Shown: positions 1,431-2,453 of the stretch, in pieces | How the letters are laid out: each line of letters starts with the position of its first letter | Position numbering within the stretch: the first letter of the stretch is position 1 | Source: Nostoc sp. GT001 | GTDB lineage: Bacteria > Cyanobacteriota > Cyanobacteriia > Cyanobacteriales > Nostocaceae | DNA: 12,425 nucleotides | Direction: 5' to 3' | Assembly (NCBI RefSeq): GCF_030382115.1 | Contig: NZ_JAUDRJ010000003.1 | Location: 6,764,450-6,776,874, forward strand | Translations under genes and position numbers: made by a program | Notes under the pieces: generated by a model | What the model was told of the DNA's origin: nothing | Databases searched by the model: none | The model's input: only the letters and a program-made list of their open reading frames with translations

Positions 1431-2453
<1,023 letters not shown>

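Follow-up and report, generated by a model that had tools for sequence, protein, structure and literature searches.

A predicted Ser/Thr kinase gene of Nostoc sp. GT001 is cut by a single in-frame TAG immediately ahead of its C-terminal domain, and this TAG is probably a real, recent, and strain-specific nonsense change, confined to one Nostoc genome, through which the normal role of the kinase has been lost or altered. The most likely reading of the allele is a gene break that is both recent and ordinary. In the window, that is, the whole stretch of 12,425 nucleotides analyzed here, the kinase is encoded on the minus strand by an open reading frame (ORF) of 340 amino acids (2453..1431) that terminates at TAG 1433..1431. 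Past this inner TAG, reading in the same phase meets no stop across 176 further codons, which begin with PKNKPIADIVFPQP, until a second TAG at 902..900. Leaving aside the inner TAG, the full-length frame has 516 sense codons. A sequence-only reading had placed the split at this TAG, and its coordinates proved exact when the frame was re-read. The features concerned are as follows.

1434..2453, minus strand: Ser/Thr (Hanks-type) kinase domain and linker, codons 1-340, from the ORF, PF00069, and orthologues
1431..1433, minus strand: in-frame TAG, at an invariant Trp codon of the orthologues, from codon reading and comparison with orthologues and sister genomes
903..1430, minus strand: C-terminal domain, 176 codons, severed from the kinase by the TAG, from orthologue matches and an AlphaFold2 model
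900..902, minus strand: second TAG, terminating the full-length frame, from codon reading
243..440, plus strand: nblA (phycobilisome degradation protein), convergent neighbor of the kinase, from PF04485 (E 8.9e-24)

The window genome (G000) measures 7.9 Mb, and a 400-kb stretch of it contains 71 N. Among the loci returned, its nearest named relatives include Nostoc punctiforme NIES-2108 and 'Peltigera membranacea cyanobiont' 210A, each 98% identical in the kinase. In a search of 53 genomes of the genus, the window genome included, the orthologue is a single open frame of 524-572 codons in all 51 other genomes that have one, with the sequence downstream of the TAG site (the C-part) in the same frame; G039 holds solely paralogues of 52-57% identity. 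The 176 downstream codons, which the sequence-only reading had judged protein-like, are indeed 84-98% identical to these 51 orthologues, none of which ends at the TAG site with a separate gene downstream. A separate downstream gene was therefore rejected within the genus, given that the C-part lies in the kinase's own frame in 51 of 51. In the named-genome sample, made up of the best 80 of 290 candidate loci, all 80 orthologues are likewise single, stop-terminated frames of 516-536 codons, against the 340 residues of the window product. A longer intact frame common to orthologues, by which a disabled gene is recognized, is thus found in both samples. The residue lost is equally constant: the Trp (TGG) proposed in the sequence-only reading is present at the TAG position in all 29 genus orthologues read by codon and in all of the best 80 named loci, and it is invariant in a 39-row alignment of relatives. 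A stricter text search for the motif around this site retrieved 71 of the 80 named orthologues, the remaining nine varying elsewhere in the motif.

The part upstream of the TAG has what a kinase needs. Pkinase (PF00069) covers residues 14-287 (E 2.7e-40; 138.9 bits versus a cut-off of 31.7), and the catalytic K44, H147-R148-D149, and D171-F172-G173, invariant in the 39-row alignment, are the same residues in the window protein, bearing out the earlier view that the kinase domain is complete. By its domain and catalytic residues, the protein is predicted to act as a Hanks-type Ser/Thr kinase. The C-part matches no family above the cut-off in Pfam or NCBIfam, and modeled alone with AlphaFold2, it reaches a pLDDT of 91.5 and a pTM of 0.87. 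When an intact relative was modeled at full length, the pLDDT fell below 50 over residues 296-331, which is weak evidence for the linker because the N-lobe of the kinase is also low-scoring, and the C-terminal domain starts just past the TAG site. The linker is likely disordered, as far as the model can be trusted, and the TAG falls at the domain boundary, one residue ahead of the C-terminal domain.

This domain is widespread. A profile search across the class detected it in 131 of the 194 genomes, and the matches listed are mostly frames of roughly 480-590 codons, which leave room for a kinase as well; shorter frames are few among them (for example, G298, G302, and G082, with 212, 302, and 147 codons), and 15 of the matches listed have a stop within the match. 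Such a distribution fits the group of cbSTKI-other kinases, described in excerpts of PMC2176072 as having 'long unidentified C-terminal domains', although the criterion as given in those excerpts (a length above 400 aa and a long unidentified C-terminal domain) excludes the 340-aa window product (PMC2176072). Among database proteins, 40 with the C-part were retrieved, of which eight come from contigs longer than 10 kb; the others, which stem from short contigs or lack a contig entry, may be pieces truncated at contig ends.

Whether the TAG is present in the cell or was introduced by sequencing or assembly, for example, by a miscall at a modified cytosine, was weighed by comparing base changes. 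On the plus strand, the relatives' sequence at the site presents both a CCWGG and a GGCC context, and C>T changes at the inner C of CCWGG number 6 of 173 in the window genome, the TAG site among the six, and 3 of 173 in G021, compared with 448 of 23,406 for all C in the window genome; the excess comes from few events. However, in a three-way comparison of the window genome with G021 and G005 over 54,852 sites, the window genome's private substitutions are not in excess, numbering 1016 versus 1071 in the sister genome G021, and the overall C>T rate is similar (448 versus 413 of 23,406), while at the second C of GGCC the two genomes are equal, with 1 of 61 each, the one in the window genome being presumably the TAG site. 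For calling either a methylation-motif miscall or a deamination hot spot, the 6 of 173 at CCWGG and the 1 of 61 at GGCC are too few. When 82 ORFs of G021 were matched in the window genome, four carried a stop, and only that of the kinase lies mid-gene, the others being at codons 8 of 278, 5 of 428, and 314 of 331. Conversely, 5 of 85 ORFs of the window genome are broken in G021 itself, two through frame changes, and of 45 ORFs queried from G005, three are broken in the window genome, namely the kinase and two with stops at codons 31 and 8. A region rich in broken genes was not seen in the ORF comparisons with G021 and G005. The assembly, in 6 contigs, has a completeness of 100 and a contamination of 0.3. 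Sequencing or assembly error is thus the less likely reading, and we regard it as unlikely overall.

Taking the TAG as a real nonsense change, it is logical to ask whether the C-part is still produced. It is open and without visible decay, as would be seen if readthrough of the stop still yielded some full-length protein. Relative to G021, synonymous and non-synonymous changes number 4 and 3 in the C-part and 8 and 5 in the N-part, and amino-acid changes are not in excess after the stop. It follows that the event is recent or that the C-part is still used, the changes being too few to separate the two; the absence of visible decay points to a recent break, and continued use would fit too. Nevertheless, no named orthologue of the 80 has a stop at the site, and neither a conserved in-frame stop nor a reassigned stop codon was found. 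TAG terminates 27 of the 89 matched ORFs of the window genome, and 5 of these 27 have TAA or TGA at that place in G021, indicating that TAG works as a stop in this organism; the full-length frame itself finishes in TAG. ARAGORN found no tRNA genes in the window. The readthrough offered as an alternative in the sequence-only reading is therefore without support, given the constant Trp and the ordinary use of TAG, and it is very unlikely. The consensus used for the ribosome site was AAGGAGG. Restart of translation past the TAG, with the C-terminal domain acting in trans as a second polypeptide, could begin at GTG 1403, 27 bases past the TAG and with 3 of 7 matches to this consensus, or at TTG 1358, where GGGGAGG lies 11 bases upstream and matches at 5 of 7 positions, better than the kinase's own start (4 of 7). 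It had been claimed earlier that the downstream part has no ribosome site; this does not hold for TTG 1358, and a criterion on which the kinase's own start scores lower does not discriminate. Against a restart, the GTG and TTG starts would cost the domain its first 9 or 24 residues, nearly invariant positions included, and in the genus the domain is not a separate gene in any of the 51 other orthologues, leaving a two-polypeptide split as a scarcely credible outcome.

For an ordinary break by nonsense change, the consequences can be outlined as follows. Translation would halt one residue short of the C-terminal domain, leaving a kinase of 340 residues that ends in a flexible tail and lacks the C-terminal domain. 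The tail domain may handle regulation, targeting, or substrate choice, and the normal role of the truncated enzyme would be lost or altered, because both the C-terminal domain and the Trp that precedes it are conserved across relatives. The loss would be buffered by two paralogues in the window genome that share this architecture and are intact, and by its many other kinases, kinase matches numbering 60 with the window gene included.

Broken orthologues elsewhere bear on how the truncation should be read. Among 192 Nostocaceae genomes searched (thresholds E 1e-130 for the kinase and 1e-55 for the C-part), the kinase was found in 168, the C-part in 170, and either part in 171; like those for the genus and the class, these counts hold among the matches listed, and breaks in the weakest matches may escape. 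Among these, a kinase frame shorter than 500 codons occurs in the window genome only, and C-part frames shorter than 500 codons occur in G000, G124, G145, G180, G144, and G211. At least 7 of the 171 genomes with either part carry a broken orthologue, six of which were followed up in addition to the window genome. In G117, the kinase continues up to residue 282 and the C-part was not found; in G180, the frame is lost near residue 280 and the C-part lies in a different frame; in G144, unrelated sequence stands in place of residues 1-37; in G124, approximately 1 kb separates residues 89 and 90; and residues 207-311 and 165-352 are absent from G145 and G211, respectively. All six reach into the kinase domain, affecting large parts of it in G124, G145, G211, and G144 and its last residues in G117 and G180. 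This pattern looks more like sporadic loss than like the outcome of selection for a freed kinase.

A beneficial truncation, releasing the kinase from an inhibitory or targeting C-terminal domain, would nonetheless agree with a cut at the domain boundary that leaves the kinase domain intact, and other kinase-only products exist, such as P0178 (309 aa, Nostoc sp. CCY0012), P0188 (350 aa), and P0176 (328 aa), as does a paralogue in G046 that lacks the C-terminal domain and retains the protein's last residues. Yet the window genome alone, among the broken family orthologues found, keeps the Pfam kinase span 14-287 untouched; the full architecture is conserved widely; and the kinase-only database matches were obtained with queries cut at the same boundary, which makes them a biased sample. 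Release is accordingly improbable. Of the earlier interpretation, the nonsense change at Trp, the complete kinase, and the severed C-terminal domain all stand, whereas the proposed freeing of the kinase runs against the conserved tail and Trp and against the six other breaks, which hit the kinase domain. Linker or near-linker breaks do recur, although with queries cut at that boundary their frequency is no measure of preference. Two natural splits in or near the linker were seen: P0178 and P0011, both halves of which are listed under Nostoc sp. CCY0012, P0011 being the detached tail, and P0188 and P0002 (350 + 183 aa), on contigs of equal size (1,609,444). Odd-looking paralogues occur in four genus genomes: besides the G046 copy, one in G003 is frame-shifted near residue 423, both copies in G011 are broken, and one copy in G014 reaches the contig end. 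Ordinary as it is, the gene break provides a natural example of a kinase cleanly separated from a domain widespread in cyanobacteria, which poses the question of whether the kinase works alone.

As a nonsense allele, the TAG is ordinary, and the greater interest may lie in the neighboring nblA. The kinase gene and nblA converge, tail to tail, in all 79 named loci where this could be tested, L110 stopping short of nblA, and the gap between the two genes in named loci is 394-1688 bases (median 467). Transcription of the kinase thus runs antisense to nblA. In strain PCC 7120, directional RNA-seq, as reported in excerpts of PMC3141674, detected antisense nblA reads that, ahead of nitrogen step-down, span the ORF together with its two UTRs and that fall afterwards (PMC3141674). 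A kinase transcript reading past its stop could conceivably be the source of this antisense RNA, making the kinase and nblA an old tail-to-tail regulatory pair whose antisense role survives the protein cut; we consider this doubtful, but if true, it would explain why breaks of the kinase protein are tolerated.

Shortly after nblA, at 453-525 on the plus strand, lies a 73-base non-coding element that is nearly unchanged across relatives, while the remaining nblA-kinase gap drifts; in an alignment of 40 rows selected out of 80, 55 of its 73 positions do not vary. When up to two mismatches were allowed, 33 of 145 class genomes had its core, each a single time, and none had the reversed control; nblA lies within approximately 350 bases of it in 12 of 12 loci read, with the kinase present or absent. 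Its fold has a z-score of -2.3, with 6 of 200 shuffles as good, compensatory changes were found in 0 of 26 predicted pairs, and Rfam gave no match over window positions 1-3000 at E up to 1. No description of the element was recognized in the portions of the literature searched, and from sequence conservation it is a candidate nblA 3'-UTR RNA element. In several genomes outside the family, the element lies, by coordinates, within a few kb of the kinase C-part. In locus L245 of G082 (829-1137 and 1555-1749), only a stretch of C-part (residues 73-175) stands beside an intact-looking nblA with the element, where the kinase seems to have been lost and nblA retained. Elsewhere in the window, Pfam gave no match at E 0.01 for a 148-aa ORF (4070-4516, minus strand) situated between a family-2 glycosyltransferase gene and anmK.

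In the gene names of PCC 7120, r stands for rightward and l for leftward. Excerpts of PMC2176072 list All4518 of this strain (Anabaena/Nostoc sp. PCC 7120) in a table as cbSTKI-other, and its number follows that of asr4517, which is nblA (PMC6166021); by the naming rule, these genes point toward each other, just as they do in the window. The window gene is the nblA-adjacent kinase of Nostocales and is probably orthologous to All4518, as judged by gene number and orientation only. Pkn22 (Alr2502) of Nostoc PCC 7120 is also a Hanks-type kinase from a heterocystous cyanobacterium, its kinase part having been taken as residues 1-325 (PMC6985446), but it has PbH1 repeats (PMC2176072) and is the first gene in an operon with prxQ-A and osiS (PMC4518582); on this architecture, as far as the excerpted sources describe it, it was set aside as probably not an orthologue. 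The closest precedent, by analogy, appears to be SpkA (sll1574/sll1575) of Synechocystis sp. PCC 6803, which, according to the excerpts, was found split into two genes in the glucose-tolerant strain sequenced first but is uninterrupted in the original strain, and whose null mutant is non-motile (PMC11863333; PMC2176072). Likened by description, both are cyanobacterial Ser/Thr kinases with a long unidentified C-terminal part that are split in one strain, the difference being that SpkA was broken by an insertion element and not by a stop codon (PMC2176072).
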